Shown here one piece after another: positions 112 through 34,988 of a stretch of DNA of 34,988 nucleotides (position 1 is its first letter; every line of letters begins with the position of its first letter). The notes under the pieces are model-generated. The model saw only the letters and a program-made list of their open reading frames with translations. It was not told where the DNA came from and did no database searches. Source of the stretch: Bacilli bacterium (GTDB lineage: Bacteria > Bacillota_I > Bacilli_A > RFN20 > CAG-826); NCBI GenBank assembly GCA_024407995.1, contig JAKSVL010000003.1, positions 1-34,988 of the forward strand, read 5' to 3'. The position numbers and the translations under genes were made by a program.

Positions 112-1752
112 ATGACTATTGGTGAAAAGATTGTCCACTTGCGTATTGTTAATAACATTTCTCAAGAAGAATTGTCTAAAAACTTAAAAGTCTCAAGACA
201 ATCATTATCTAAATGGGAAAATAATGACACTTTACCTCCTTTGAATTCTATTAAGGATTTATGTCAAATCTTTAAAGTATCCGCTGATGAACTTATTGAT
301 GACAACATTGTCATTCATCGTGGCAAAAGAGTAGAACTCCCTGATGAAAATATCAAAACAAAATATTTCGGTACTGATGGTTTTAGAGGCGAGGCTAATG
401 AATCATTAAATTCAGATAAAGCTTATAAAATTGGTCGTTTCTTAGGTTGGTTCTATAGCAATCCTAAATACAATATGCAAAAGCCAGGATATCGTCCAAA
501 AATTGTTATCGGTAAAGATACAAGACGTTCTTCCTATATGCTTGAATATAGTGTCGCTGCTGGTGCGGCTAGTAGTGGTGCAGACGTGGAGTTACTCCAC
601 GTGACCACAACCCCATCTGTTTCATATATCGTGAGACAAGACTGTTTTGACTGTGGTGTGATGATCACGGCATCCCACAACCCATTCTATGACAATGGTA
701 TTAAAGTCATTAATGCTAATGGTGAAAAACTTGAAGATGGTGTGGCCTACTTAGCAGAAGCTTATTTGGATGGTGATTTTAAAGCCCTTGGTCTTGAAGA
801 TGAAGAAGATTTACCATTTGCTAAAAGAGGCGATATTGGCACAATCAACGATTACTCATCTGGTAGAAATAGATATATTGGTTATCTTATCTCTTTAGCA
901 AGACATTCCATGAAGAGATTAAAAATTGGTTTAGATACTGCTAACGGTGCTTCTTGGATGATTGCTAGAAGTGTTTTTGAAGCACTAGGAGCACAAGTGT
1001 TTATCGTTAACAACCATCCAGATGGTTTAAATATAAATTTCAATGCGGGTTCCACTCACATTGAACAATTCTGTAAATTTGTAAAAGAAAATAAATTAGA
1101 TGTCGGTTTCGCCTTTGATGGTGATGCTGATAGATGCATTGCCGTTGATGAAAATGGCAAAGAAGTCGATGGTGACAAAATCATGTATTTGCTTGCCTGC
1201 AAGTTACAAAGTGAAGGTTCCCTTGAAAAAGATACTGTCGTCGCCACAATTATGTCCAATAGTGGCCTTGAAAAGGCCCTTAAGAATATTGGCCTTAAAT
1301 TGGTGAGAACCAAAGTTGGCGATAGATTCGTCTTTGAAAAGATGATGAGTGATGGTTACGCTCTTGGTGGTGAACAATCTGGTCACGTTATTATTAGAAA
1401 ATATGCTACAACTGGTGATGGTGTTTTGACTGCTATCATGCTCGCTGAAGAAATGCTTGAAAGAAAAGAAACTCTTTCTAAACTTGTCTCACCAGTGAAA
1501 TTATTCCCACAAAAAACCAAAAATATCAAAGTCACTGATAAGAATGCAGCGGTAGAAGACGCTGCAGTCAAAGCTAAATTTGACGAAGTGAATAAAGAGA
1601 TTGGTGATAACGGGCGTGCGTTATTAAGACAATCTGGTACTGAGCCAGTCATTCGTATTACTGTGGAATATCAAACCTTACAAGGCTGTGATGAATATAT
1701 CGAGAAGATATATAACGTTGTGAAAAAAAGAGGCTTTGTCATCGATGAATAA
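112..1752 (+). CDS. glmM: HTH (XRE family)-phosphoglucosamine mutase fusion
   Basis: A 546-residue protein joins a DNA-binding domain to a complete alpha-D-phosphohexomutase. Residues about 5-62 are a Cro/C1-type helix-turn-helix (motif SQEELSKNLKVSRQSLSKWE). From about residue 84 it reads as GlmM, which converts glucosamine-6-P to glucosamine-1-P for cell-wall precursors: FGTDGFRG at the start, phosphoserine loop TASHNP with Ser188, metal loop DGDADR near 336-341, the GlmM-type sugar loop GEQSGH, and phosphate loop RQSGTEP near 506. GlmM alone is about 450 residues, so the extra length equals the HTH. No stop or plausible internal start separates the two parts. TAGGAGG precedes the ATG by 8 bases. 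It heads an operon with a GlmU-like acyltransferase and nagB, so autoregulation or pathway regulation is likely (inference). GlmM identity is favoured over phosphomannomutase by the GEQSGH loop and the neighbours. Confidence 0.92.
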   Translation: MTIGEKIVHLRIVNNISQEELSKNLKVSRQSLSKWENNDTLPPLNSIKDLCQIFKVSADELIDDNIVIHRGKRVELPDENIKTKYFGTDGFRGEANESLNSDKAYKIGRFLGWFYSNPKYNMQKPGYRPKIVIGKDTRRSSYMLEYSVAAGAASSGADVELLHVTTTPSVSYIVRQDCFDCGVMITASHNPFYDNGIKVINANGEKLEDGVAYLAEAYLDGDFKALGLEDEEDLPFAKRGDIGTINDYSSGRNRYIGYLISLARHSMKRLKIGLDTANGASWMIARSVFEALGAQVFIVNNHPDGLNINFNAGSTHIEQFCKFVKENKLDVGFAFDGDADRCIAVDENGKEVDGDKIMYLLACKLQSEGSLEKDTVVATIMSNSGLEKALKNIGLKLVRTKVGDRFVFEKMMSDGYALGGEQSGHVIIRKYATTGDGVLTAIMLAEEMLERKETLSKLVSPVKLFPQKTKNIKVTDKNAAVEDAAVKAKFDEVNKEIGDNGRALLRQSGTEPVIRITVEYQTLQGCDEYIEKIYNVVKKRGFVIDE

Positions 1753-2419
1753 AAAAGCAGTTTTAACAAAAGATTTATTCAATATCGAAGAGCCTTCATA
1801 CATGAAAGAGTTTTTTGGCAGATATGAATATCCTTGGCAAATGCTTCCTCATATTAAGGATCTAATAAGTGAATTATTAGAAAAGGGCATTCCAGGATAT
1901 ACCTTACTCAAAGAAGGTGTTTTGATAGGTGAGGATGTGAGCATCGCGCCAACCGCGACAATTATTCCCCCTGCTATTATCGGTAGTCATACCGAAATTA
2001 GACCAGGTGCCTTTATTAGAGGAAACTTCATCTGTGGTGAGAACTGTGTTCTTGGTAATTCTTCAGAATTCAAAAATGCCATTCTCTTATACCACGTACA
2101 AGTCCCACATTATAACTATGTTGGTGATTCCATCCTGGGTAATTATGCTCATATGGGTGCAGGTTCAATCTGCTCAAACCTAAAAAGCGATGGAAAGAAC
2201 ATCACCATACATGGTGATACTGAAATCGAATCCGGTTTAAGAAAAATAGGGGCAATCCTAGGAGATTATGCAGATATTGGTTGCCAGTCCGTTCTTAATC
2301 CAGGAACAATCATTGGCAAACATACACAAGTGTATCCATTAAGTATGGTACGCGGTGTGGTCCCAGAAAATAGTATTTATAAAGCAAAAGATAATATTGT
2401 CGTTAAAGAAAAGAGGTAA
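1745..2419 (+). CDS. Left-handed beta-helix acyltransferase, GlmU C-domain-like
   Basis: A 224-residue protein made mostly of hexapeptide repeats (about residues 55-200), the left-handed beta-helix fold of acyl/acetyltransferases. Two stretches resemble the acetyltransferase half of GlmU: VPHYNYVGDSILG, like the VNHLTYVGDAEIG region, and GAGSICSNLKSDGKN, like GAGTITCNYDGKN. The nucleotidyltransferase (pyrophosphorylase) half of GlmU is absent. The likely role is acetylation of glucosamine-1-P made by the upstream GlmM, but the substrate is inferred from motifs and context. The ATG at 1745 is preferred to the TTG at 1736, because AAGAGG (1728-1733) is 11 bases from the former and only 2 from the latter. 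The gene overlaps the glmM stop by 8 bases, so translation is probably coupled. Homologues may be listed as UDP-GlcNAc pyrophosphorylase, a misleading name for this domain alone. Confidence 0.8.
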   Translation: MNKKAVLTKDLFNIEEPSYMKEFFGRYEYPWQMLPHIKDLISELLEKGIPGYTLLKEGVLIGEDVSIAPTATIIPPAIIGSHTEIRPGAFIRGNFICGENCVLGNSSEFKNAILLYHVQVPHYNYVGDSILGNYAHMGAGSICSNLKSDGKNITIHGDTEIESGLRKIGAILGDYADIGCQSVLNPGTIIGKHTQVYPLSMVRGVVPENSIYKAKDNIVVKEKR

Positions 2420-2425
2420 AACAAA

Positions 2426-3148
2426 ATGAAAGTAGTTATCGGCACAAACGAAGAAATCAGCAAATTGATTGCAGAAGAATTTATCAAGCAAGTCCAAAAG
2501 AAACCAAATAGTGTTCTTGGTTTAGCAACAGGTACATCTCCAATTGATGTTTACGCTAATATGATTAAGGCTAATCAAGAAGGTCGTGTTTCATTTAAAG
2601 ATGTCGCCACATTTAACTTAGATGAATATATTGGCTTAGAAGGTACACACGATCAATCTTATCGTTATTTCATGAATAAATATTTATTCAATGGTTTAGA
2701 CATTGACAAAGCTCGCACACATGTTTTAAAAGGTGTTGGTGATTATTTAGCATATGCTAATCAATACGATGCTGAAATCGCTTCTTTCGGTGGCATTGAT
2801 TTACAAATCTTAGGTATTGGTAGTGATGGCCATATCGCTTTTAATGAACCAGGAACTCCATTTGATTCATTAACTCATGTTGCAGAATTAACCGAACAAA
2901 CAATTAAAGATAATTCTCGTTTATTCAATGATATTTCTGAAGTCCCAACTAAGGCTGTTACTATGGGTTTAAAGAGCATTATGAATGCAAGAAAAATCGT
3001 TTTAATTGCAACTGGTCAAAATAAAGCACAAGCAATTTATAATTTATTAAAAGGTCCAAAGACCGAAGATGTTCCTTGCTCAATTTTACAAGATCACCCA
3101 GACTGCACAATTTATTGTGATGCTGCGGCATATAGCTTAATTAAGTAA
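2426..3148 (+). CDS. nagB: Glucosamine-6-phosphate deaminase
   Basis: This 240-residue protein interconverts glucosamine-6-P and fructose-6-P plus ammonia in the cytoplasm. The sequence has the NagB phosphate loop LGLATGTSP (31-39), FNLDEYIGL with the catalytic base Asp66, and GIGSDGHIAFNEPG with Asp134, His136 and Glu141. These are spaced as Asp72, Asp141, His143 and Glu148 are in E. coli NagB. Length is typical of the short Bacillota form. The ATG follows AAGAGGT and lies 6 bases after the previous stop, so it is the third gene of the operon, which ends at a strong terminator. With GlmM and an acetyltransferase upstream, it may run in the aminating direction and supply glucosamine-6-P (inference). 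The alternative is the usual catabolic role. Confidence 0.95.
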   Translation: MKVVIGTNEEISKLIAEEFIKQVQKKPNSVLGLATGTSPIDVYANMIKANQEGRVSFKDVATFNLDEYIGLEGTHDQSYRYFMNKYLFNGLDIDKARTHVLKGVGDYLAYANQYDAEIASFGGIDLQILGIGSDGHIAFNEPGTPFDSLTHVAELTEQTIKDNSRLFNDISEVPTKAVTMGLKSIMNARKIVLIATGQNKAQAIYNLLKGPKTEDVPCSILQDHPDCTIYCDAAAYSLIK

Positions 3149-3162
3149 AAAAAGCACCAAAT

Positions 3163-3190
3163 AAAAGCGGCTGAAACACGCCGCTTTTTT
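3163..3190 (+). terminator. Terminator after nagB
   Basis: Perfect 9-base stem AAAAGCGGC (3163-3171) and GCCGCTTTT (3180-3188) with loop TGAAACAC and a T run. It ends the glmM-acyltransferase-nagB operon. Confidence 0.93.
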
Positions 3191-3220
3191 ATTGGCAATT
3201 TTTAAAAATTAGGGTTTTAC

Positions 3221-3249
3221 TTACAAAAAATGCTTAAAAATGCGATAAT
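3221..3249 (+). promoter_or_regulatory. Predicted promoter of carD, start site almost at the ATG
   Basis: TTACAA (3221-3226), 17 bases, GATAAT (3244-3249). A start about 7 bases past the -10 would fall near 3256, giving a leader of about 4 bases before the ATG at 3260. There is no Shine-Dalgarno-like purine run upstream of that ATG. Confidence 0.5.
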
Positions 3250-3259
3250 ATAAACGTAA

Positions 3260-3751
3260 ATGTTTAAAATTAATGACTCTGTAATCCATTGCCGCGAAGG
3301 TCTTTCCAAGATAGTTGCTATGAACAGCATGAATGGAAAAGATTACTTTTTAGTGAGCGTTCAACGCAACAGTGGCGAAACAATTTATGTGCCAGTGGAA
3401 ACTGCTAGTAGTATCATTCGTCCTTTAATGAATGAAAAAGAAGCAGATGAGTTATTAAGATATATCAAGAAGATTCACAAAGAATTCAACACCAATACCA
3501 AACAAAGAAGAGACGCTTATAAAAAGATGCTTTCTTCTGGTGATGTGAAAGAAATTGCTTATTTATATCGTCAATTATTTTTCTATAACAAAATCGGTGG
3601 TGAAAATAACACCGAAATTAAATTAGGCCCAGTTGATATTGATATGCTAACTTATGCACAAAATATGTTGATGGATGAATTGTCAATCACTTATAACGTG
3701 AAATTAGAAGAAGTTAAAGACTTCGTTGAAAAGAGAATCGCTAAATTATAA
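3260..3751 (+). CDS. carD: CarD/CdnL-type RNA polymerase-binding regulator
   Basis: A 163-residue protein that begins directly with a CarD/TRCF RNA-polymerase-interacting domain (residues 1 to about 60: FKINDSVIHCREGLSKI, then a short beta-rich stretch ending YVPVET) followed by an all-helical C-terminal half. Family members bind the polymerase beta subunit and stabilise open complexes at rRNA and other promoters. Because the domain starts at the first residues, the ATG at 3260 must be close to the true start even though no ribosome site precedes it. It lies between the nagB terminator and a convergent gene whose stop it overlaps by 6 bases, so it is probably transcribed alone. The assignment rests on the N-terminal pattern and overall architecture; the gene symbol follows the family. 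Confidence 0.85.
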   Translation: MFKINDSVIHCREGLSKIVAMNSMNGKDYFLVSVQRNSGETIYVPVETASSIIRPLMNEKEADELLRYIKKIHKEFNTNTKQRRDAYKKMLSSGDVKEIAYLYRQLFFYNKIGGENNTEIKLGPVDIDMLTYAQNMLMDELSITYNVKLEEVKDFVEKRIAKL

Positions 3752-4402
3752 ATTAACCCACTTTAATAAGTAATCGGTTAGTTCTCTAATTGAAGAAAAC
3801 GGCATGTCGTTAGGACATGTTTTTTTAAGCTCATCAAGCGTTCTAAAACCATAGGCCACTAAACGATAATCTAGCTCTGCGTTACTCGCGCTTTCTTTAT
3901 CAATATCAGTGTCACCAATATATAAACATTCTTCTTTGTTAATATCATTTTCTTTAACTATTTTATTAATAAGATATGGATCTGGTTTTTTAGGATGATC
4001 CATATATGAACCTTGAATGACATCAAATATACCAGGGAACTCTTTATTAATAAGTTTTTGTGTTAAATCATTGTCTTTATTAGAGACCACAACTAGTAAA
4101 CATTTTCCTTTTAAAGATGTTAATAATTCCTTAATTCCTTCGTAAGGTTTTGTATAGATATCATAATGTTCTAAATAATAAGATTTAAATAAATAAAAGA
4201 CCTCTTTTTCTTTTTCTTTAGTAATACTATTACCAGTACATCTATTGATTAAAACTTGTGTGCCATTTCCGATTGCTTTTCTCACGAATTCAATGCACCT
4301 CTCCTCTAAATTGAAGGAAATTAAAGCGTGATTAACAGCGTTTGTTAAATCTTGTAAGGTATCAAGAATCGTGCCATCAAGATCAAAAATAATTGTTTTC
4401 AT
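3746..4402 (-). CDS. HAD-superfamily hydrolase, phosphoglycolate phosphatase-like
   Basis: A 218-residue haloacid-dehalogenase phosphatase. Motif I is FDLDGTILDT with nucleophile Asp7 and Asp9, motif II is VVSNKD with Ser107, motif III is the KKPDP region (Lys138/139), and motif IV is IGDTDID with Asp164 and Asp168. A helical cap of about 70 residues sits between motifs I and II (subclass IA), as in phosphoglycolate phosphatase and PpaX-like pyrophosphatases. The substrate cannot be read from sequence. Its ATG overlaps the sirtuin stop by one base (TAATG) and has no clear ribosome site, so translation is probably coupled to the sirtuin. Its 3' end overlaps the convergent carD gene by 6 bases, with no terminator between them. 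Confidence 0.88.
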   Translation of the reverse strand: MKTIIFDLDGTILDTLQDLTNAVNHALISFNLEERCIEFVRKAIGNGTQVLINRCTGNSITKEKEKEVFYLFKSYYLEHYDIYTKPYEGIKELLTSLKGKCLLVVVSNKDNDLTQKLINKEFPGIFDVIQGSYMDHPKKPDPYLINKIVKENDINKEECLYIGDTDIDKESASNAELDYRLVAYGFRTLDELKKTCPNDMPFSSIRELTDYLLKWVNL

Positions 4403-5130
4403 TATTTAATCTTTTTAATTACTTCAGCGACATCTTCGTTGAATACTAAATCACAGTTAGAATCATATGAAGTAGCTTCTTTGTTGATAACTACCAAATA
4501 ACGACCCTTGAAATAGCGAACAAAGCCAGCAGCAGGATACACTCTTAATGATGTACCGATAATAATCAAAAGGTCGCATGTCATTATAGCGTTGATGGAT
4601 CTACTGATTGTATCTTCATCCAACGATTCTTCATATAAAACAACATTTGGTTTAATCGTGCCAACACATTTATCACAATGCGGTACACCCTTAGAATTCA
4701 TCACATAATCTAAACCAAATAAGCGCCCACATTTTTGACAGAAATTTTGATGAACTGTGCCGTGCAATTCGTACACTAAAGATGAGCCAGCTTTTTGATG
4801 AAGGCCATCAATATTTTGAGTAACAACAATTACATTTTTACCCTTCTTTTCTAAATCTGCAAAAAACTTATGTGCGATGTTTGGTTCGGCATTTGGGTAG
4901 CACATTTTGTCTTTATAAAATTCGTAAAATTCTTCTGTGTGCTTGACAAAGAAGGTATGAGAAATGATATCTTCTGGTGTCGCACTAAATTTTGTTTTTT
5001 GATTATAGATGCCATCAGCGCTTCTAAAATCAGGGACGCCACTAGGCACAGATATACCCGCGCCAGTGAAAACGACGATATTTTGACACTCGCCGATCAT
5101 CTCTTTTAAATATTCATATTCGTTTTTCAT
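4402..5130 (-). CDS. cobB: SIR2-family NAD-dependent protein deacylase
   Basis: A complete 242-residue bacterial sirtuin, which removes acyl groups from protein lysines using NAD. NAD-binding motifs are GAGIS (23-27) followed by GVPDFRS, and TQNIDGLH (104-111). The catalytic histidine is in ELHGT (His123). Four zinc-binding cysteines are in two CxxC pairs (131/134 and 152/155). The C-terminal Rossmann part has GTSLRVYPAAG. It is first in a two-gene operon with a HAD phosphatase, divergent from the O-antigen ligase-like gene. No Shine-Dalgarno sequence precedes the ATG, and a predicted promoter ends 6 bases before it. Whether it is a deacetylase, desuccinylase or other deacylase is not shown; the symbol is the common bacterial name. 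Confidence 0.93.
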   Translation of the reverse strand: MKNEYEYLKEMIGECQNIVVFTGAGISVPSGVPDFRSADGIYNQKTKFSATPEDIISHTFFVKHTEEFYEFYKDKMCYPNAEPNIAHKFFADLEKKGKNVIVVTQNIDGLHQKAGSSLVYELHGTVHQNFCQKCGRLFGLDYVMNSKGVPHCDKCVGTIKPNVVLYEESLDEDTISRSINAIMTCDLLIIIGTSLRVYPAAGFVRYFKGRYLVVINKEATSYDSNCDLVFNEDVAEVIKKIK

Positions 5131-5136
5131 GACACT

Positions 5137-5165
5137 ATTTTAACAATTTATTGTTAGTTTGTTTA
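5137..5165 (-). promoter_or_regulatory. Predicted promoter of the sirtuin gene, leaderless arrangement
   Basis: Read on the minus strand: TAAACA (5165-5160), 17 bases, TAAAAT (5142-5137), then AGTGTC and the ATG at 5130. A start 7 bases after the -10 is the A of the ATG. No ribosome site is present. Confidence 0.5.
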
Positions 5166-5198
5166 GGGCAATTGTTAATGAATTATATAAATTTAATA

Positions 5199-5226
5199 TG
5201 GTCAAAATTATGTCGGCGTGTATAAT
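5199..5226 (+). promoter_or_regulatory. Predicted promoter of the O-antigen ligase-like operon
   Basis: TGGTCA (5199-5204), 16 bases, perfect TATAAT (5221-5226). The start would be near 5233, leaving a leader of about 30 bases without a Shine-Dalgarno sequence. A second possible -10, TATTAT (5251-5256), lies 7 bases before the ATG but has no good -35. Confidence 0.5.
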
Positions 5227-5263
5227 ACTCGTGGGACATCGGTCTCGCATTATTATTTGATAT

Positions 5264-6901
5264 ATGGGCAAATTAAGATTTACATTAACTAGTGTCGTAT
5301 TTTGGATAGTGTTAGTCCTATCCTGTATTTTGTCTGAAAGCTTTATTGTTTTTAATAGCGATCCACTTAAATCGTTCTCTAGTGATTCCGCTTTTTTCTT
5401 AACTGTCTCCATTATCATCTTATTAGTGTTTTATTATTTCCTCGAACATAAAAAGAATGGTCTTAAATTCGACAAAATTCTTTTACCAAGTTTTTGCATT
5501 ATTGGTTTATTGCTTATTCTTAATGTCTTCCGTCAAGGTGAACGTTCCTTCATTAGCTATTCAGGAATGTGGGACTTCATTATTACTTTTTCTTTTAAAG
5601 ATCGCTTTATGGCGGCCTTACAAATTGTTATATGGCTAGGGGTTGTTTATGGTCTAATTTTCTCTTACAATCGCTTGCGATTGAACAAAGAAAGCTTCAG
5701 ATGGATTGCTAAGATTTATTTGCTAGGTATCATCTGTGTTTCTTTTTTTGATCACTTTTTAGAAGCAGAAACTATCGGCGGCATCTTTAACGGCACATAC
5801 GAAGGCGAAGGTTTAGAGTTTGTCACGGGCAATCCTAATGTTTGGTCTTTATTAATATTCTCCGCTATATTGTGCGCTTTGCTTCTCTGTTATAAGAGGT
5901 TTAATTGGTACTATTTAGCAGCGATGATTTATTTATTCATCTTCAACATTCTTACGACTTGTTCTTCCACATTCTATATTTCATTTATCGCTATTACAGC
6001 GTTCATTATTTATGAGATTGTTTCAACATATAGACACGATAAATATCATCGTCGAAGATTGACTATTATTTATCTCAGTTGCCTTTTAGGCGCTGTTGGT
6101 TTATTTGCCTTTTTAGTATTGCTTCAAGTTCCAGTTTTTTCTAACATTTGGTCTTTCATTATTAGAGAACTATTCCAGAAAGATTTTATGACATTAACTG
6201 GCCGCACTGATATGTGGCAAAGAATCATTATTTTGATGAGTGGAAATCCACTAGATATTATTTTTGGTTTAGGCCATCAAACAGCCACTTTTGTTTTTAG
6301 AGAATATATGGGCACATCAGTTAAAAGTGCGCATAATGCTTTCTTTGAAATATTCTTAAGATATGGTCTAGTTGGCCTATTAATTTATGTTGGTTTAATT
6401 GGTGTAATTATTTATTGTTTTATTTTACAAATAAAGAAGAAAAATTATCGCTTCTCTTTCTTCTATGGTATTTGCTTCATCAGCATTTTCATGCATTCAT
6501 TATTAGAATCTACAACTTTGTTCACGCCTAATATTGGAGGTCTATTCTTCGGTGCGGTTTTTGTTTTACCAGTTATGAACATTCTTCAAGAGAAAAAAAT
6601 CGCAGAATTTAAAGCAGATATATTAACTATTAATGTTACTAAAGAAACAATTAAATCAACAACAGCTATATCACATGTGGTACAAATTGCGTATTCAGTA
6701 ACGTTAACAATTATATTAAAAAATATTTTTAATATTGGGCCATATCGCTTTATACTAATTCTTATCTTTTTGATAATGATTAATACAATTGTGATTTCTC
6801 GTTTGAGAAAAAATAAGAATTATAAACCATTACAAATTCTATCTAATAATATATTATTAAGATATCAAAACGCAGTGAAAAAGGAGAGAAACGATGAGTA
6901 A
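5264..6901 (+). CDS. O-antigen ligase/polymerase-like membrane protein
   Basis: A 545-residue polytopic membrane protein with about a dozen hydrophobic segments. The middle matches the O-antigen ligase/Wzy family pattern: GNPNVWSLL near residue 190, a run of helices, the TGRTDMWQ motif near 310 opening the large extracytoplasmic loop, and SAHNAFFEIFLRYG near 354-367 before more helices. Such proteins polymerise or transfer surface polysaccharide repeat units. The C-terminal 110 residues (after about 435) add a soluble stretch and two or three more helices and match nothing I recognise. It starts an operon whose next gene, smpB, overlaps it by 8 bases. The ATG has no visible ribosome site. It is confidently a membrane protein of this superfamily; the polymer and the ligase-versus-polymerase role are unknown. 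Confidence 0.8.
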   Translation: MGKLRFTLTSVVFWIVLVLSCILSESFIVFNSDPLKSFSSDSAFFLTVSIIILLVFYYFLEHKKNGLKFDKILLPSFCIIGLLLILNVFRQGERSFISYSGMWDFIITFSFKDRFMAALQIVIWLGVVYGLIFSYNRLRLNKESFRWIAKIYLLGIICVSFFDHFLEAETIGGIFNGTYEGEGLEFVTGNPNVWSLLIFSAILCALLLCYKRFNWYYLAAMIYLFIFNILTTCSSTFYISFIAITAFIIYEIVSTYRHDKYHRRRLTIIYLSCLLGAVGLFAFLVLLQVPVFSNIWSFIIRELFQKDFMTLTGRTDMWQRIIILMSGNPLDIIFGLGHQTATFVFREYMGTSVKSAHNAFFEIFLRYGLVGLLIYVGLIGVIIYCFILQIKKKNYRFSFFYGICFISIFMHSLLESTTLFTPNIGGLFFGAVFVLPVMNILQEKKIAEFKADILTINVTKETIKSTTAISHVVQIAYSVTLTIILKNIFNIGPYRFILILIFLIMINTIVISRLRKNKNYKPLQILSNNILLRYQNAVKKERNDE

Positions 6902-7352
6902 TGATGCTGGAATTAAAATTATAACTTCGAACAAAAAAGCCCATTTTAATTATTTCCTTAGTGAATTCACTGAATGTGGTCTTTCTTTAATGGGCACAGA
7001 AATCAAGTCCTTAAGGACCCATGGTTGTTCCCTTAATGATTCTTATATTGTGATTAGAAACGGGGAAATGGAAGTCTTAAATATGCACATTAATCCTTAT
7101 GACAAAGGCAACATTTTTAATCACGATCCTTTAAGAACTAGAAAGCTCTTATTACATAAAAAAGAAATTAGATGGTTTGATGATAAAGTTAAAAGAGATG
7201 GCTACACTATCGTTCCTACGCGCGTGTACCTAAAGCGTGGTAGGGCGAAGATAGAGATTGCCCTTGCAAAGGGCAAAAAGCTCTATGACAAACGTGAAAC
7301 AATCAAACAAAGAGACATTAAACGCAGCCTCAAGAATGGAGATAATCTATGA
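6894..7352 (+). CDS. smpB: SsrA-binding protein SmpB
   Basis: A 152-residue tmRNA partner that delivers SsrA RNA to stalled ribosomes. Diagnostic stretches are NKKAHFNYF at the start, GLSLMGTEIKSLR, NGEMEVLNMHINPYDKGN, RTRKLLLHKKEI, RVYLKRGRAKIEIALAKGKKLYDKRE, and a basic tail after the KRE segment that becomes helical in the ribosome. AAGGAGA is 7 bases before the ATG. The start overlaps the upstream membrane-protein gene by 8 bases and the stop overlaps folC (ATGA), so it sits mid-operon. The tmRNA gene itself, often nearby, is not in this window. Confidence 0.97.
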   Translation: MSNDAGIKIITSNKKAHFNYFLSEFTECGLSLMGTEIKSLRTHGCSLNDSYIVIRNGEMEVLNMHINPYDKGNIFNHDPLRTRKLLLHKKEIRWFDDKVKRDGYTIVPTRVYLKRGRAKIEIALAKGKKLYDKRETIKQRDIKRSLKNGDNL

Positions 7353-8560
7353 ATATAAAAGACTATTTTGAACAAGCCGACCGTGGTGATTATCAACGTG
7401 AAAACTTTGATGACTTTTTGAAGAAAGTCTCTTTTAAATATAACGTTCCTTCCATTCATATCGCGGGCAGCAATGGTAAAGGTACTACTGCGAACTATCT
7501 CGCTAACATTTATCAAGTTCATGGTTTAAAAGTTGGTCTATACACTTCTCCATATTTAAACGATGTAAATGAAATGATAAGCATCAATGGAGAAAACATT
7601 TCTGATAATGATATTGAATCCGCATTAAAAGAGAATGATAAATTGTTCCAAAAATATGGCTTGTCCGCTTTTGAAATTCAAACATTTATTGCCTTAAATT
7701 ATTTCCAAAAAAACAATGTTGATTTAGCCATTATTGAATGTGGAATGGGCGGTGAAATTGATGCCACAAATATCTTTGAACCAATCCTTTCAATCATCAC
7801 ATCAATCAGTCTAGAACACACAGCATTTTTAGGCCGCTCTTTGTGTGAAATTGCTTATCAAAAAGCCGGTGTTATTAAGGATGAAATTCCTGTTATCACA
7901 GGCATACTTGAAGACGAAGCTATTAACACAATCGTAGAAGTTGCAAAAGAAAGACATTCCCAAGTTATCGTTTCAGTCGAACCTGCAAATGTAGTTTATA
8001 GTGATTATGGTTATACATTTGCATATCTCACCTATACAGATCTTAGAATCAACTCTTCTGCAACATATTCATTAAAAGATGCTTGTATCGCTTTAGAAGC
8101 GGTCAATAAGCTACAAGATAGATATCAAATTAGCGAACAAGAAATTCATGAAGGACTCGCTAAAACATATATGCCAGTTCGTATGGAAATTATGAACGAG
8201 AAACCACTTATCATTATTGATGGTTCGCATAATCCAGAAGGTGTGTACAACATGGTTAAATCACTACCTTATGTCGTCGGAAATCGAGAACTTCACGTTT
8301 TATTCGCTTGTTTTAAAGATAAAAATGTTGAACGTATGTTGTCGTATTTAGGCGAATATAGTAAGGACATTACTTTAACAACATTCCCACATAAACGTGC
8401 TAGAACAGAAGAAGATTATTTCCTCTATTTAGACGATCATCATTTTAGCGAAGATGCGATTGCTGCTTTAGCTGAACTAAAGGAAAAATATCCAGAAGAT
8501 GTAATTTTAATCGTTGGTTCATTAGCGTTTGCAGCATATATGAAAAACACAATAAAATAG
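7349..8560 (+). CDS. folC: Folylpolyglutamate synthase / dihydrofolate synthase
   Basis: A 403-residue Mur-ligase-family enzyme that adds glutamates to folates so they stay in the cell and bind their enzymes. The ATP loop is GSNGKGTT (40-47), followed by TSPYL, the family signature ECGMGGEIDATN near 130-141, ITSISLEHTAFLG, and the C-domain signature DGSHNPEG near 291. It overlaps smpB by 4 bases (ATGA), with GGAG upstream inside smpB. The following gene is a folate-type ECF transporter subunit, which suggests import of folate and trapping by polyglutamylation. Whether it also has dihydrofolate synthase activity is not decided by these motifs. Confidence 0.96.
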   Translation: MNIKDYFEQADRGDYQRENFDDFLKKVSFKYNVPSIHIAGSNGKGTTANYLANIYQVHGLKVGLYTSPYLNDVNEMISINGENISDNDIESALKENDKLFQKYGLSAFEIQTFIALNYFQKNNVDLAIIECGMGGEIDATNIFEPILSIITSISLEHTAFLGRSLCEIAYQKAGVIKDEIPVITGILEDEAINTIVEVAKERHSQVIVSVEPANVVYSDYGYTFAYLTYTDLRINSSATYSLKDACIALEAVNKLQDRYQISEQEIHEGLAKTYMPVRMEIMNEKPLIIIDGSHNPEGVYNMVKSLPYVVGNRELHVLFACFKDKNVERMLSYLGEYSKDITLTTFPHKRARTEEDYFLYLDDHHFSEDAIAALAELKEKYPEDVILIVGSLAFAAYMKNTIK

Positions 8561-24905: not shown

Positions 24906-26588
24906 TTAGGCTTTTGCAACGTAACCAGGAACGAAGATTTCACGGATATGTTCAAGTGTGGATTTTTCAATACCGAAGCTCATTAAGTGGTTTTCCATCT
25001 TATCTGCAAATGTTGAACCATCACAAGCTTTTGTCTTTTCTAACCATTTTGGGAATTCAGCATCACTTTCGGTATATTTAACTGTTCTACCTTGAGTGAA
25101 TTGTGTCCAGAGGTAATCTCTAATCATATCTTCTTCATTCATACCTAATAAGGCTTCTAAGAAGAATGTGGTGATACCAGTTCTATCAGCACCATATGTG
25201 CAGTGCAACATAGCAGGCGCTGTATCACAGTTAGCTAATGTATCAAAGATGATTTTATATTGTGCGGCAATATCAGTTCCTTGATAAGAGCCACCTTCCC
25301 AACGTACTGGTTCGGAACCAGATGGGACGGCTGCACCAACGAATGTCACTGGCCAATCATTACTATTAGCAGCGGAGACATTACCTTGTGGGAAGTTATA
25401 GCTATCTCTCATGTCGATATCAACTTTAATGCCGAGTTCTTTAATAGCAGCTTTGCCTAAACCAGCGGTATCCAATTTAGAAGTTGTGTTGCCACCGCGG
25501 CCAGCATCGAGTTGAGCGCAACGGAAATATAAACCTTGATTAATCTTGGCGCCTGGAACTAATGTTGATTCCCAACCACCAATATCACGGAAGTTAAGAA
25601 TGTTTGGAACATTCACAACACGTGGTGCTAAATCAGTTGAAGTGATATTTTTAACTTCGGCACTAGCTAGAGCGCTTTCACTTGTGGCGGCTCTATAGTA
25701 ATACTTTGTGCTTAATTTAGCGTTTTGGAACATATAGTACTTGTTAGTAGATTCTCTAACGGTAGCATTGGCTAATGCTGCTTCGCTTTCAGCAACTTGG
25801 AAATAATATTTGCTAGCATCTTCAAGTTCCTCGTATCTTAATTTCATACCTCTTGGAGCGGATAAATCGGCACCAGTTGCGTATGTCTTATATTTGAGTT
25901 CATCTTCATCCATCAAATACTTATATTGTTGTAAGTTATGGAAATCATTATCTGGAATATCGTCTTCAGTAATTGTGCTTGGATCTACTGGAACGATGCT
26001 GGCATCAGTTGTTTTGAATTGAATGTAGTCAATACTGGCAAGAGATACTGGGGCTTCATCCTTAACAGTGATAGAAACGTTATAAGTACCTGGATATAAG
26101 TCTTGAGATTCATATGGTAATAAATCCCAAATTGTCGCGCTACTACGAGCAGCTAATGTTCCCTTACCTTCTGCGAATGAAAGTGGTGAAACCGTTTCAA
26201 TGTTGTAATGATAAACTTTGGACATGTCAAGTGCTTTAGCGATATCGCTTTCAACTTGAGCATATGCGGCAGAGATCACAACCTTAGAGAATTTCTTTAA
26301 TTCAAAGCTAAATTTTGCTTCCGCAGCAGAACCTGAAGCTGCAGCAGCAACATATTTACCACCAGAGGCATTAGCTTCTTCGATGATATTGTCATCATAA
26401 GATTCATCGGCTTCCCAACCTGATAAGTCGAAATCTTCAGCTTCCATTTTAAGAGTACCAAAATCTTCGATAACGATTTTGCTCTTATCATTGTTTTGTT
26501 TGGATGAGCCGTTGCCACCTTGGCCACTGCCACAACCTGTTAAACATGCTACAACTAACAATGAGAGTAGAATATTTTGTTTTTTCAT
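24906..26588 (-). CDS. Secreted lipoprotein with CBM6-like, Fn3-like and tyrosine phosphatase domains
   Basis: A 560-residue surface lipoprotein. The signal peptide ends at lipobox LTGC (Cys19) and is followed by a Gly/Ser/Asn linker. Residues about 35-180 look like a carbohydrate-binding module of the CBM6/35 kind (KMEAEDFDLSGW, then ASGGKYV, and a final DYIQF strand). About 215-300 is a fibronectin type III-like pair of strands. The catalytic domain starts near NFRDIGGW (about 331-338) and has the phosphatase loop HCTYGADRTG (Cys463, Arg469), matching the tyrosine/serine phosphatase family with the NFRDIGG signature. The start is the ATG at 26588, preceded by GGAGAC; an ATG 18 bases upstream is inside a hairpin and would put charged residues before the signal. 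A paralogue is at 31424-32572. The substrate (phosphoprotein or other phosphoester outside the cell) is unknown. Confidence 0.85.
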   Translation of the reverse strand: MKKQNILLSLLVVACLTGCGSGQGGNGSSKQNNDKSKIVIEDFGTLKMEAEDFDLSGWEADESYDDNIIEEANASGGKYVAAAASGSAAEAKFSFELKKFSKVVISAAYAQVESDIAKALDMSKVYHYNIETVSPLSFAEGKGTLAARSSATIWDLLPYESQDLYPGTYNVSITVKDEAPVSLASIDYIQFKTTDASIVPVDPSTITEDDIPDNDFHNLQQYKYLMDEDELKYKTYATGADLSAPRGMKLRYEELEDASKYYFQVAESEAALANATVRESTNKYYMFQNAKLSTKYYYRAATSESALASAEVKNITSTDLAPRVVNVPNILNFRDIGGWESTLVPGAKINQGLYFRCAQLDAGRGGNTTSKLDTAGLGKAAIKELGIKVDIDMRDSYNFPQGNVSAANSNDWPVTFVGAAVPSGSEPVRWEGGSYQGTDIAAQYKIIFDTLANCDTAPAMLHCTYGADRTGITTFFLEALLGMNEEDMIRDYLWTQFTQGRTVKYTESDAEFPKWLEKTKACDGSTFADKMENHLMSFGIEKSTLEHIREIFVPGYVAKA

Positions 26589-26598
26589 AAAGTCTCCT

Positions 26599-26613
26599 CG
26601 ATTCATAGAATCG
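26599..26613 (-). promoter_or_regulatory. Dyad directly before the ribosome site of the lipoprotein gene
   Basis: CGATTCATAGAATCG has perfect 6-base arms around ATA. In the mRNA it forms a hairpin ending just before AGGAGAC of the gene at 24906-26588. It may be an operator, an mRNA stabiliser, or a block to the alternative ATG at 26606 that lies within it. Confidence 0.4.
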
Positions 26614-30101: not shown

Positions 30102-31286
30102 ATGGCAAAACAACATTTTGACAGAAGTAAACAACACGTCAATATTGGTACCATCGGTCACGTTGACCACGGTAAAACAACATTAACCGCCGCTATTACA
30201 TCTGTCTTAGCAAAAAAAGGTGGCGCAGTCAAAACTGATTATGCTTCAATCGACTCCGCACCAGAAGAAAAAGCTCGTGGTATTACAATCAACACCGCTC
30301 ACATCGAGTATCAAACAGAAACAAGACACTACGCTCACGTTGACTGCCCAGGACACGCTGACTACATCAAGAACATGATTACTGGTGCTGCCCAAATGGA
30401 TGGTGCTATCTTAGTCGTCGCAGGTACTGATGGTGTTATGCCACAAACACGTGAACACATCTTATTAGCCCGCCAAGTCGGTGTCCCATATATCGTCGTG
30501 TTCATTAATAAAACTGACTTAGTCGATGATCCAGAATTATTAGACTTAGTCGAAATGGATGTCCGTGAATTATTAAATTCTTATGGCTTCCCAGGTGATG
30601 ATGTTCCAGTTATCCGTGGTTCCGCAAGAGCAGCTCTTGATGGCAACGCAGAACAAGAAAAGAACATCGAAGAATTAATGGCAGCATGTGATGCTTACAT
30701 CCCAGCTCCAGCTCGTGAAAACGACAAACCATTCTTATTAGCTATCGAAGACGTCATGACAATTTCTGGTCGTGGTACAGTCGTTACAGGCCGTGTTGAA
30801 CGTGGCCAAGCTAAATTAGGCGATGCAGTTGAAATCGTCGGTATCAAACCAACAGTCAACTCCGTCATTACAGGTCTTGAATCCTTCCGTAAGATTCTTG
30901 ACTACGCCGAAGCCGGTGACAACGTTGGTGTCCTTTTAAGAGGTATCAACCGTGACCAAGTCGAACGTGGCCAAGTCTTAGCAAAACCAGGTAGTGTTAC
31001 TCCACACTCCAAATTCAAAGGTCAAGTCTACGTTTTAACAAAAGAAGAAGGTGGCCGTCATACAGCTTTCTTAAGCAACTACCGTCCACAATTCTACTTC
31101 CGTACAACCGACGTCACAGGTGTTATCACACTTCCTGCTGGTGTCGACATGGTTATGCCTGGTGATAACGTTGAACTCACAGTTGAACTCATTCACCCAA
31201 TCGCCATGGAAAAAGGTACCAAATTCTCCATCCGTGAAGGTGGCAGAACCGTTGGTGCTGGTACAGTTAGCGAAATTATTAAATAA
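30102..31286 (+). CDS. tuf: Elongation factor Tu
   Basis: A 394-residue GTPase that carries aminoacyl-tRNA to the ribosome. Motifs are GHVDHGKTT (19-27), the switch-[29 protein letters not shown], and GSARAAL near 173. Domains 2 and 3 follow with [32 protein letters not shown] and the C-terminal [26 protein letters not shown] lies about 10 bases upstream of the ATG. It is separated from fusA by 105 bases with its own promoter and followed by a terminator. Confidence 0.99.
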
Positions 31287-31308: not shown

Positions 31309-31340
31309 AAAGCTCACCCATTAAAAGGTGGGCTTTTATT
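31309..31340 (+). terminator. Terminator after tuf
   Basis: Stem AAAGCTCACC (31309-31318) and GGTGGGCTTT (31327-31336) with one G-U pair, loop CATTAAAA, and a short T-rich tail. Confidence 0.87.
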
Positions 31341-31423
31341 ATTTAAAGAATCTAAAACGATAAGAATAACAAACCTTATTTTTCAAATAAAACAATTTAT
31401 GATATATTTTTTATTAGGAAATT

Positions 31424-32572
31424 ATGAAAAAAGTTTTGCTCTCATTATTAGCCGTTGTGCCGCTAGTATCTTGTACTACGGCATCAATCCCTACAATAAA
31501 TCAATTAAAAGTGGCTTCTAAAGGCCATTTTAGCGATGCACAGTTAAATTATCTTTCTAGCGATAATTACACCGATACGACCCCATATAATGGCAATATG
31601 TCGGTATCTAAACCTTTGCCTATTAATATTTCATGGGAAAATTTAGAAAATAAAGCATATAAGATCGAAATATATCATGATCAATCATGTAATGATTCTT
31701 CATTAATTACCTCCTACGTCGTAGAAGGAAATGCTTTTGATTTTTATAATCCAGAATTTAATAAAGAATATTATGTCAAAGTAGTTTCTAAAGAGAACGA
31801 AAAAATCACCGCTCAAAGCGAGGCGGTTTCTTTCAAAGAAATTCCAGCTGTACCAGGTCCAAGAAATCTTTTTGTGGACGGCGTTGAAAACTTCCGTGAT
31901 ATTGGTGGTTGGGGTAAATTTGTTAACAATCAATATCAAACATATATGAAGCAAGGAATGCTTTATCGTTCTGGTCGTTTTAATGCAGACTCGGTAGAGC
32001 AAGTCAATGTCACGATTACTAATAACGGATTACAAGAAATCAATAATCATTTAAAAATTAAAACTGAAATTGATTTAAGAAGAACTTCCACGAATGAAGT
32101 TGGTGCTTTAACTAATAAATCTCCTTTAGGAGATAATGTGAATTATATTCAAATACCAATGGCTTTCGGTGGTAAAAACATTCTAACGTTCAAAGGCACT
32201 TTGAGTAATGATTCATATCAATATGATAATCCAAGCGCAATCAAAAACTTCTTTGAAGTACTCGCTAATGAAAATAATTATCCAATCAATTTTCATTGTT
32301 CTATTGGTAAAGATAGAACAGGCTGCATGGCTTATCTCATTGAAGGTTTGTTAGGCTTCAGTGAAAAGGATATGTGCCGGGATTATATGTTCACCAATTT
32401 TGCCGATGCTGGAATGTGCAAAATCAGCGATATTAATGATCGCTATGGTGATACTATTTCCAAATATGAAAACGGCAACACAATTAATGAAAAAATATAC
32501 AATTATTTAAACGAAGTTATCGGTGTATCTAAAGATAATCTCGATAAAATCATTAATATTTTAAAAGCATAA
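31424..32572 (+). CDS. Secreted lipoprotein with tyrosine phosphatase domain
   Basis: A 382-residue surface lipoprotein, shorter paralogue of the protein at 24906-26588. The signal peptide ends at lipobox LVSC (Cys17). Residues about 45-140 form a fibronectin type III-like domain (INISWENLENKAYKIEIY to KEYYVKVVSK). The catalytic domain runs from NFRDIGGW (about 155-162), through LYRSGR and IDLRR, to the phosphatase loop HCSIGKDRTG (Cys292, Arg298). The C-terminal 80 residues match the paralogue (LLGFSEKDMCRDY against LLGMNEEDMIRDY). The CBM-like domain of the paralogue is missing. TAGGAA precedes the ATG; the only nearby promoter candidate (TTTCAA 31381, TATATT 31403) is weak. It starts an operon with two RDD proteins. 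The substrate is unknown. Confidence 0.85.
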   Translation: MKKVLLSLLAVVPLVSCTTASIPTINQLKVASKGHFSDAQLNYLSSDNYTDTTPYNGNMSVSKPLPINISWENLENKAYKIEIYHDQSCNDSSLITSYVVEGNAFDFYNPEFNKEYYVKVVSKENEKITAQSEAVSFKEIPAVPGPRNLFVDGVENFRDIGGWGKFVNNQYQTYMKQGMLYRSGRFNADSVEQVNVTITNNGLQEINNHLKIKTEIDLRRTSTNEVGALTNKSPLGDNVNYIQIPMAFGGKNILTFKGTLSNDSYQYDNPSAIKNFFEVLANENNYPINFHCSIGKDRTGCMAYLIEGLLGFSEKDMCRDYMFTNFADAGMCKISDINDRYGDTISKYENGNTINEKIYNYLNEVIGVSKDNLDKIINILKA

Positions 32573-32573
32573 A

Positions 32574-33707
32574 ATGGAAGAAAATAAAGATAACATCATT
32601 GAAATTAGACCAGTTAGTAAATGGAAAAGGTTTCTCGCTTTCTTAGCGGACTTCTTTATTGCGTTTATTATCGCTTTTACTTTATTTAATTTAGCAACTT
32701 TTCCTTTAGCGAAGCTTATTTTTAATACACAAAAACAAAGTGAACAGGCTTTGGTACTAGAAAGAAAAGCCACCAACTTATTAATTAATGATGGCTATTT
32801 ATATTCGCCTGCAATGGATGCTTCGTTTGAAGATGATGTGAACTATACGTTTAAAGTGTTTTTGTCTTATTACGCTTTTGATGAAGAAACTCCAGAATCC
32901 ACTAAAGCGCAATTTGGTCACAAGATAGAAAATGAAGTAATTTTGAAATATTACAAAAATGTGATAAAAGACACAGATTTATATATAAACGACTTTAAAG
33001 AGATCAATCAAGAAGATGAAATGTTTGAAATCGGCAGTACTCTTGATGAAATCACTTTAAAAAGTGATTATAAGACCATATTAGCAAACGAACTATTAGA
33101 AGTAGTGAATGAAGATAAATATAGTGCCACAATGACCAATTTTAGAGATCATGTTTTTGCTAAACTATTCTATTTAAAAGTTTATGACCATATTCTTACT
33201 AATGATTATGTTGCTGATGGCGTTTCGTTTAAAGAGTGTTTAGAAGAGTCTAGAGACATTATGCGCTCGCTCCAATGGATTGCCACTGGAACAGCTTTAT
33301 TTACAACTTTATTAGCGTGGGCTATTTGCTTTGTTATATATCCTTTAATTAATAAAGATCATAAAACTATTGGATTAAGTGCAATGCATATTTCAAAGTT
33401 GAACTATCGCACCCTTGGACCAATCAGTCGTGGTAGTGTGATGATTCAATCATTTTATCAATTTGTGTTCTTGTTAAGTGGCAATTTATTCTTACCTATT
33501 TTGTTCTTTGGAATGTCTTATATATTTAACCTTCCTTTGCTATTTGTTTTAAGTTTAATTTCGTTTATCTTAATTCTTGTTTCAGGTCTATTTATTATCA
33601 CTAGTGGATATAACCGTAGTGGTGCTGATATATTAACAAATATCGTTTTGCTTCCTGATAGTGAAATCGATATGATGTATAGAGTTGAGGTCGATCATGG
33701 AGAATAA
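32574..33707 (+). CDS. RDD-family membrane protein with large extracytoplasmic insertion
   Basis: A 377-residue membrane protein. The N-terminal RDD-type segment KWKRFLAFLADFFIAFIIAF contains the conserved Arg19 and Asp26 within the first helix. A soluble, charged region of about 180 residues (roughly 50-230) follows and is predicted outside. Two or three further helices start near SLQWIATGTALFTTLL, and the family-like cytoplasmic stretch KTIGLSAMHISKLNYR leads to the last helices. RDD proteins are mostly uncharacterised; some are ion antiporters or transport-related. The ATG is 1 base after the phosphatase stop with no ribosome site, so it depends on translation from upstream. The next gene is a paralogue overlapping by 11 bases. 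Confidence 0.75.
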   Translation: MEENKDNIIEIRPVSKWKRFLAFLADFFIAFIIAFTLFNLATFPLAKLIFNTQKQSEQALVLERKATNLLINDGYLYSPAMDASFEDDVNYTFKVFLSYYAFDEETPESTKAQFGHKIENEVILKYYKNVIKDTDLYINDFKEINQEDEMFEIGSTLDEITLKSDYKTILANELLEVVNEDKYSATMTNFRDHVFAKLFYLKVYDHILTNDYVADGVSFKECLEESRDIMRSLQWIATGTALFTTLLAWAICFVIYPLINKDHKTIGLSAMHISKLNYRTLGPISRGSVMIQSFYQFVFLLSGNLFLPILFFGMSYIFNLPLLFVLSLISFILILVSGLFIITSGYNRSGADILTNIVLLPDSEIDMMYRVEVDHGE

Positions 33708-34773
33708 TCAAAAAGAAATTGAAAGGAACGAAGTAGTTAATGTCAATTACGCTCAGCCTAAATTCTGGCATCGTGTGATGGCAAACTTTGTTGACTTCTT
33801 TTTATTCATTCTTCTTTTTCTTTCTGCCTTCATCGGTATGCGTACGATAGCTTTGAACATTCCTTCCTATCAAGCGGTAGAGAAAAAGATAAATGATATA
33901 CAAATAGCGTCAGGTATGTATGTTAAAGATCCTAACGATTCTAGCAAAAATATTGATACCGTGTATTATTTAGACCGCTACGTTAGTCTTTATGGTAATG
34001 AATTTGATGGTGTAGGAGAAGATGGAGGAGCGCCAACTGGTAAAATTGGTATCATTGTTTCTTCTATTAATAAGTTAATTAATTATTGCGGTGATGAATC
34101 GGTCACTCCAAAAGAGAGATATTTAGAGCTTGTTAGCTACTATGATAACATGCGTTTAGAAGCGATAACTGATGACGGTGTCCATTATTTTGTTAAAGAT
34201 GGCGAAAATATCATCCCTAATGAAACACTCGCAGGATCTGCAGAAAAAAGACAACTTTATTACAAAAATGTCTATGTTCCTATTGTCGAAAAAAGATGTA
34301 TCCCATTTTTGGAAAGCAACGTGACTGAATATCGCGAATCTTATCGCACTGAATTTAATTATTTGGTTTTCTTTGAGCTACCAGTATCATATGTTATTGC
34401 CGCTATTCTTGTTTACTATATTCCACCTTTAATTATGAGAAGAGGCAGGATGACATTAGGCAAAGCACTCTATCGAATTGGCCTTGTTGATGATCGTGTT
34501 TTATCACCAACTTTCTGGCGCTTTACTGTACGTTTTCTTATCTTATTAGTTGGTGAATTTATCCTTTCATTATTCACATTTGGTTTACCCTTCATTATCT
34601 CATTCTCGCTAATGGCGTTTTCTAAGAAAAAACAAGGCTTCCCAGATTACATGCTTCACCTATATGAAATCGATGCATCTAAGGCAAATATCTATATGGA
34701 TTATGTTGAAGCCGCTCTTAAAAATGAGCTTCATGGTGATGCCGTTGACTTCTCAATGGAAAAGCCATTATAA
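33697..34773 (+). CDS. Second RDD-family membrane protein with large insertion
   Basis: A 358-residue paralogue in layout of the preceding gene. The first helix is PKFWHRVMANFVDFFLFILL (conserved Arg26, Asp33). An extracytoplasmic region of about 170 residues follows (roughly 50-220). A helix near YLVFFELPVSYVIAAILVYY comes next, then the RDD-type stretch RMTLGKALYRIGLVDDR, two more helices, and the family-like end KKQGFPDYMLHLYEID. The ATG at 33697 is preferred over one at 33685 because GAGG (33687-33690) lies 6 bases before it. It overlaps the previous gene by 11 bases. Function unknown; two subunits of one membrane complex is a reasonable guess. No convincing terminator follows. Confidence 0.75.
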   Translation: MENNQKEIERNEVVNVNYAQPKFWHRVMANFVDFFLFILLFLSAFIGMRTIALNIPSYQAVEKKINDIQIASGMYVKDPNDSSKNIDTVYYLDRYVSLYGNEFDGVGEDGGAPTGKIGIIVSSINKLINYCGDESVTPKERYLELVSYYDNMRLEAITDDGVHYFVKDGENIIPNETLAGSAEKRQLYYKNVYVPIVEKRCIPFLESNVTEYRESYRTEFNYLVFFELPVSYVIAAILVYYIPPLIMRRGRMTLGKALYRIGLVDDRVLSPTFWRFTVRFLILLVGEFILSLFTFGLPFIISFSLMAFSKKKQGFPDYMLHLYEIDASKANIYMDYVEAALKNELHGDAVDFSMEKPL

Positions 34774-34817: not shown

Positions 34818-34847
34818 TTGACAATTTTCATATTTAAGTCATATAAT
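34818..34847 (+). promoter_or_regulatory. Consensus promoter of the last gene
   Basis: Perfect TTGACA (34818-34823), 18 bases, perfect TATAAT (34842-34847). It lies just after a small dyad ATGCG-CGCTACA-CGCAT (about 34796-34812) that lacks a T run. Confidence 0.8.
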
Positions 34848-34879: not shown

Positions 34880-34988
34880 ATGAAACATCTTGTCAAAACA
34901 ATGTCGCGTTTCTTGTTACTAGGGCTCACTGTCGGCTGTGGCTTTCTTGCGTTATCTAGAAATAATCAAACTATCGCTCCTGCCCTAG
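34880..34988 (+). CDS. Exported or membrane protein, N-terminal fragment
   Basis: Only the first 36 codons are in the window, with no stop. The reading starts MKHLVKTMSRFLLLGLTVGC, a basic N-terminus followed by a hydrophobic run, and continues GFLALSRNNQTIAPAL. This can be a signal peptide or membrane anchor. TVGC (Cys20) resembles a lipobox but the hydrophobic stretch goes on past the cysteine, which argues against a lipoprotein. AAGG lies about 9 bases upstream and a consensus promoter before that. The product cannot be identified from this part. Confidence 0.65.
   Translation, partial: MKHLVKTMSRFLLLGLTVGCGFLALSRNNQTIAPAL

Follow-up and report, generated by a model that had tools for sequence, protein, structure and literature searches.

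In the mycoplasma SNase-ABC operon, the SNase is active and co-transcribed, and import of nucleic-acid precursors has been proposed but not proven (PMC3585158). The locus that we describe here resembles M. agalactiae MAG_5030-MAG_5070 in that a surface SNase lipoprotein, a binding lipoprotein, an ATPase and two permeases are clustered (PMC3585158). It differs in carrying RDD genes, "RDD" having no mention in that report (PMC3585158), and in the position of the SNase, which is upstream in the mycoplasma operon and mostly downstream in the Bacilli loci studied here.

RDD proteins are widespread, and we found one functional report on them, which proposes that the RDD protein of Halobacillus andaensis is an antiporter and in which R124, R129, D154 and D158 are the residues found essential (PMC5996927). 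The two RDD proteins of the present locus, RDD1 and RDD2, are like this antiporter and other PF06271 members in scoring above the family cut-off, in their R/D/D residues and in having three transmembrane-like (TM-like) segments. Unlike typical PF06271 proteins, they have extracytoplasmic domains of 165-185 residues, are encoded as a tandem pair and are recurrently linked to ABC and SNase genes.

The lipoprotein encoded before RDD1 shares its catalytic domain and HCxxGKDRTG loop with PF13350 lipid/tyrosine phosphatases (PtpB of M. tuberculosis, PDB 1ywf; PDB 8dhi), and differs from the PtpB type in being a lipoprotein, in its N-terminal region (about 130 residues) and in its importer-associated locus. 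The importer is like the CUT1 systems UgpBAEC and MalEFGK in its ATPase, permeases and binding protein, and unlike them in that the ATPase of this family has an insert of ~270 residues (Walker A to signature) and that EXO, an exported membrane protein, RDD1 and RDD2 are encoded alongside. A search of the literature on RDD proteins with SNase or ABC operons returned nothing relevant and, as far as such searches reach, the link between RDD proteins and a nuclease-coupled importer has not been described previously.

Phosphatase lipoprotein and RDD pair downstream of tuf

The window, by which we mean the whole stretch of 34,988 nucleotides that was analysed, carries a phosphatase lipoprotein gene and two RDD genes close to its right end (Table 1). 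The first-pass annotation had recognised this trio; its three reading frames are real, the identities given to them are correct, and we confirm both the 1-base gap between phosphatase and RDD1 and the 11-base overlap between RDD1 and RDD2. The overlap supposes that RDD2 starts at ATG 33697, most likely the true start as judged from the sequence, with TTG 33685 as a longer, mechanical alternative.

Table 1. Features of the locus and its surroundings in the window
Feature	Position	Strand	Remarks
Second PF13350 phosphatase lipoprotein	24906-26606	-	566 aa; upstream of rpsL
tuf (EF-Tu)	30102..31286	+	Left neighbour of the locus, kept in many relatives
Intrinsic terminator of tuf	31309..31336	+	10-pair stem, -15.3 kcal/mol, z -3.9
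Possible weak promoter	31380..31408	+	TTTTCA-17-TATATT, TG before second hexamer; 9/12
PF13350 phosphatase lipoprotein	31424..32572	+	382 aa; lipobox LVSC at 14-17; loop HCSIGKDRTG (C292, R298)
RDD1 membrane protein	32574..33707	+	377 aa; signature R19/D26/D352
RDD1 predicted extracytoplasmic domain	32724..33278	+	About residues 51-235; without PDB fold match
RDD2 membrane protein	33697..34773	+	358 aa, ATG start; signature R26/D33/D317
RDD2 predicted extracytoplasmic domain	33859..34341	+	About residues 55-215; without PDB fold match
Promoter-like site between RDD2 and EXO	34818..34847	+	TTGACA-18-TATAAT; 12/12 consensus
EXO start (exported membrane protein, ~710 aa)	34881..34988	+	Contig ends 108 bases into gene

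With a strong terminator behind tuf, the trio is probably transcribed separately. Its transcript may possibly start from the weak promoter-like site located 15 bases 5' of the phosphatase start codon, a kind of match that is no commoner than in shuffles. The perfect promoter-like site 5' of EXO may uncouple the trio from the importer. Elsewhere in the window, a phosphoglucomutase/phosphomannomutase-type enzyme (GlmM-like; positions 112-1752) carries an XRE-type helix-turn-helix domain at its N-terminus, which is an unusual fusion, and an L10 leader RNA (RF00557; 14158-14279) is the sole Rfam match.

The lipoprotein matches PF13350 (Y_phosphatase3) with E=1e-27 and 98.1 bits against a cut-off of 22.2, and its CX5R active-site motif is intact, with C and R invariant in 18/18 sequences. 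An action on nucleotides would be a guess from the position of the gene; to our knowledge, PtpB and related PF13350 phosphatases are not known as nucleotidases. An association of such phosphatases with RDD proteins as a general rule was considered and rejected, being seen in just 1/20 neighbourhoods of short full-length PF13350 proteins. A separate RDD-phosphatase adjacency occurs on contig C1 of genome G012 (L157 / L190, locus positions 669-7737), where the order is lipoprotein, fused permease, MalK-type ATPase, RDD (333 aa), signal-less PF13350 protein (248 aa) and probable RpiR-type regulator.

RDD1 and RDD2 score 31.8 and 51.1 bits, respectively, against PF06271 (cut-off 24.1). The RDD signature consists of an R at the start of TM1, a D within TM1 and a D in the C-terminal part. 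In alignments of 48 relatives these residues are found in 43/48 (R19), 46/48 (D26) and 38/48 (D352) sequences for RDD1 and in 45/48 (R26), 48/48 (D33) and 42/48 (D317) for RDD2. Hydropathy averaged over 48 relatives places TM1 at ~21-48 in RDD1 and ~26-53 in RDD2 and TM2 at ~236-259 and ~220-246, with a stretch of ~165-185 residues between them in both proteins. Each has three TM-like regions by this measure, the last of which could span twice in RDD1. According to the positive-inside rule, the K/R-rich stretches at the N-terminus and after TM2 put the large domain outside. The first-pass annotation was thus right to call these outer domains larger than usual, the PF06271 model having only 137 positions; RDD matches outside the order are mostly 150-290 aa.

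AlphaFold models of the two RDD proteins are confident (mean pLDDT 91.0 and 93.4) and largely helical, and a PDB fold search with both found no match (best E 0.45 and 0.21; TM-scores of the best hits no higher than about 0.2). The homology between RDD1 and RDD2 extends over their full length (298 columns, 99.5% by hhalign), suggesting that the pair probably arose by duplication and making a pair of related subunits plausible. Just these two RDD genes were found in the window's genome, which is 69% complete.

Genomic partners of the RDD pair in relatives

RDD2 has a match in 124/146 family genomes. We labelled the neighbourhoods of relatives with profiles built for this analysis and obtained 57 adjacent RDD1-RDD2 pairs among the loci fetched across the family, window included, with identities to the window of 22-55% for RDD2 and 14-53% for RDD1. 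The two genes are thus not neighbours by accident. An ABC ATPase follows RDD2 on the same strand in 51 of these pairs, often with an SNase lipoprotein further on; some relatives are without a recognisable SNase. Among the remaining six pairs, two (window and L053) are truncated at contig ends, and L048, L058, L063 and L093 form one rearranged clade, three of them with SBP-SNase genes directly upstream. The partners that persist with the RDD pair are the downstream ABC importer and, often, the SNase lipoprotein, which lie beyond the window.

The phosphatase is less regular. It precedes RDD1 in 12/57 pairs, all within one 19-locus clade and with four changes on the tree, and wherever present (12/12) it is the gene directly before RDD1, with a gap of -20 to +63. 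Five of the 45 pairs without it are at contig ends. The first-pass annotation had taken the trio for one functional unit and had offered its conservation in relatives as a check: the trio does not stay together. What stands of that proposal is the RDD pair, with its order and tight spacing kept, while the phosphatase is not a constant member.

Within the phosphatase clade, the slot before RDD1 may instead hold SNase+LTD (L042, L045), endonuclease I (L043, L044, L055, L082), a 5'-nucleotidase-like metallophosphoesterase (L068, L069) or an EAL/GGDEF protein (L049), L044 being assigned by near-identity to L043 and L045 by a profile built for this analysis. Slot content alone is weak evidence, since unrelated genes (ZIP transporter, Fic) occupy the slot in other clades. 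Three or four RDD-type genes are found at the locus in L076, L081, L096, L140, L142, L146, L149 and L151.

The genes downstream of the trio can be read in relative L042, where EXO encodes a protein of ~710 aa whose signal peptide precedes a large outer part and C-terminal TM segments; next come the genes of an ABC ATPase, two permeases and a solute-binding lipoprotein. Their identities (UgpC/MalK-like ATPase, two BPD_transp_1 permeases, SBP_bac_8 lipoprotein) are those of a CUT1-type importer. In the window's own genome, contig C18 (L104) begins inside EXO and carries its 3' part, followed by ATPase, permease, permease, SBP, a second SBP-like lipoprotein, SNase lipoprotein, zinc ribbon and a 1007-aa lipoprotein. 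We infer from synteny, and not by joined sequence, that the window contig continues into C18. The ATPase, two permeases, binding lipoprotein and SNase lipoprotein of a mycoplasma-type cluster are all in order on C18, with the join to the window by synteny, and in relatives. The segments RFYGIDTPES and SRYVSLVW of the SNase fit the catalytic residues (two Arg, one Glu) by eye only, there being no PDB match for residue mapping. The small zinc-ribbon protein (L104:9956-10450) lies beside the SNase, and similar-looking ones adjoin SNase in L058, L063 and L093.

Between Walker A and the signature, the ABC ATPase (for example L042:11305-13215) has an insert that reaches up to ~270 residues and is lacking in families f11 and f17. 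This insert mostly goes with EXO (median Walker A-to-signature distance of 371 with EXO and 129.5 without), and its length shows no correlation with summed RDD length (Spearman -0.015).

In a class-wide profile search, long-ectodomain RDD proteins were found in this family and, within the order, in one further family, f11, and no RDD2-type match was found in the two UGA-reading, mycoplasma-like genomes listed (G148, G160). The order RDD-ATPase-permease-permease-SBP-SNase occurs also in f11 (2-3 RDD genes), f25 (one) and f17 (one, about 255 aa), often accompanied in these families by a large lipoprotein. In one genus, a single SNase gene is present in 9/17 genomes, and in 8 of these 9 it is located 5.5-9 kb away from an RDD match. 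The f17 cluster comes after an apparent dnaX-ebfC-recR (names read from sequences and gene sizes), and a locus of another family, L160, has ABC-SBP-SNase genes without RDD after the same kind of neighbours, indicating that RDD is not essential to the cluster. The likely course of events is acquisition of a single RDD gene by an SNase-ABC cluster, followed by duplication and enlargement of that gene.

Substrate of the importer and role of its neighbours

We propose, and consider on balance probable, that the trio forms the front of a locus by which gut and rumen Bacilli scavenge nucleic acids and import the products, with the phosphatase as an optional, clade-specific surface hydrolase. Surface nucleases (SNase, and endonuclease I too in some relatives) would cut extracellular DNA or RNA, and surface phosphatases, either 5'-nucleotidase-like or here the PF13350 lipoprotein, would strip phosphate. 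The product would then be captured by the solute-binding lipoprotein and brought in by the ABC transporter. The RDD proteins may serve the importer as accessory membrane subunits, either keeping surface enzymes and binding protein next to it by means of their extracytoplasmic domains or gating or energising it. The role of the RDD proteins and the substrate of the phosphatase are the least certain steps. The large outer domains of the pair would fit a platform, and we tentatively raise the possibility that RDD1 and RDD2 are heterodimeric subunits of the nuclease-coupled ABC importer that gather nuclease, phosphatase and binding protein.

Import of nucleic-acid material is supported by the lack of PurH, by the nucleases and nucleotidases found in the slot before RDD1 and by the OB-fold nucleic-acid-binding match that the large lipoprotein near SNase has in some relatives. 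PurH is absent from 112/117 family genomes and present in 12/14 controls, and with PurH mostly missing purine salvage is likely needed. Full-length RDD2 and SNase are retained in 2/5 PurH-positive genomes, and their tie to purine auxotrophy is therefore not absolute; two genomes had hinted that the cluster and purine synthesis are anticorrelated, which for the same reason was not upheld. For pyrimidines, a test with DHO_dh was mixed across the family, with weak matches or none among the window-genus members listed.

The main argument for another substrate, and one that weakens the case for nucleic acids, is that the closest solved structures of the binding protein are sugar-binding proteins. 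The nearest models of the ATPase and permeases are UgpC/UgpA/UgpE and MalK/MalF/MalG (sugar and glycerol-3-phosphate importers), and the structurally known PF13350 relatives are PtpB of M. tuberculosis and related phosphatases. It is conceivable that the substrate is instead a sugar or phosphorylated compound (oligosaccharide, glycerol phosphate or inositol phosphate) which the PF13350 lipoprotein dephosphorylates outside, the nuclease being a general scavenger that shares the locus by chance. This appears rather unlikely given that SNase is tied to the cluster in four families, that endonuclease I and 5'-nucleotidase recur in the same place and that the mycoplasma SNase operon also has CUT1-like proteins (PMC3585158). 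We judge it less probable still that the RDD pair is an independent cation/proton antiporter and merely a neighbour of the importer. Na+(Li+,K+)/H+ antiport is reported for the Halobacillus protein and the R/D/D signature is conserved here; however, R35 and D42, two of the three family-wide residues, are dispensable for antiport (PMC5996927), and an antiporter leaves unexplained both the large extracytoplasmic domains and the linkage of RDD to ABC-SNase genes in four families.

The phosphatase itself may be a passenger, one PF13350 lipoprotein whose gene came to lie behind tuf and shares a transcript, but not a function, with the RDD genes. The window's genome has at least 8 PF13350 lipoprotein genes, most of them elsewhere, and genomes of the family have up to 11 matches, which favours a passenger, but the place and order of the phosphatase gene are kept over a clade with RDD2 identity down to about 36% and its catalytic motif is intact, and we regard a passenger as possible while leaning against it. 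Another reading, close to what the first-pass annotation had suggested, is a dedicated surface complex of the phosphatase and the RDD pair, in which the phosphatase is coupled to a paired channel or transporter and does not depend on the downstream importer. The near contact of phosphatase and RDD1 in the window, their direct adjacency in every pair that has the phosphatase, the probable transcription unit after the tuf terminator and the separate strong promoter-like site downstream are all consistent with such a complex. The phosphatase is, however, missing from 45/57 pairs while the ABC importer is present in 51/57, which makes the dedicated complex very improbable.

The nucleic-acid-scavenging locus that we favour would carry the nuclease-importer idea beyond mycoplasmas to other small-genome Bacilli, mostly without purine synthesis, in which the importer locus is seen to gain and swap surface hydrolases. 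The link of RDD proteins to a surface-nuclease importer over four families provides a testable function for at least this RDD branch. The platform role, if true, would assign a definite function to the RDD family, which is poorly understood.
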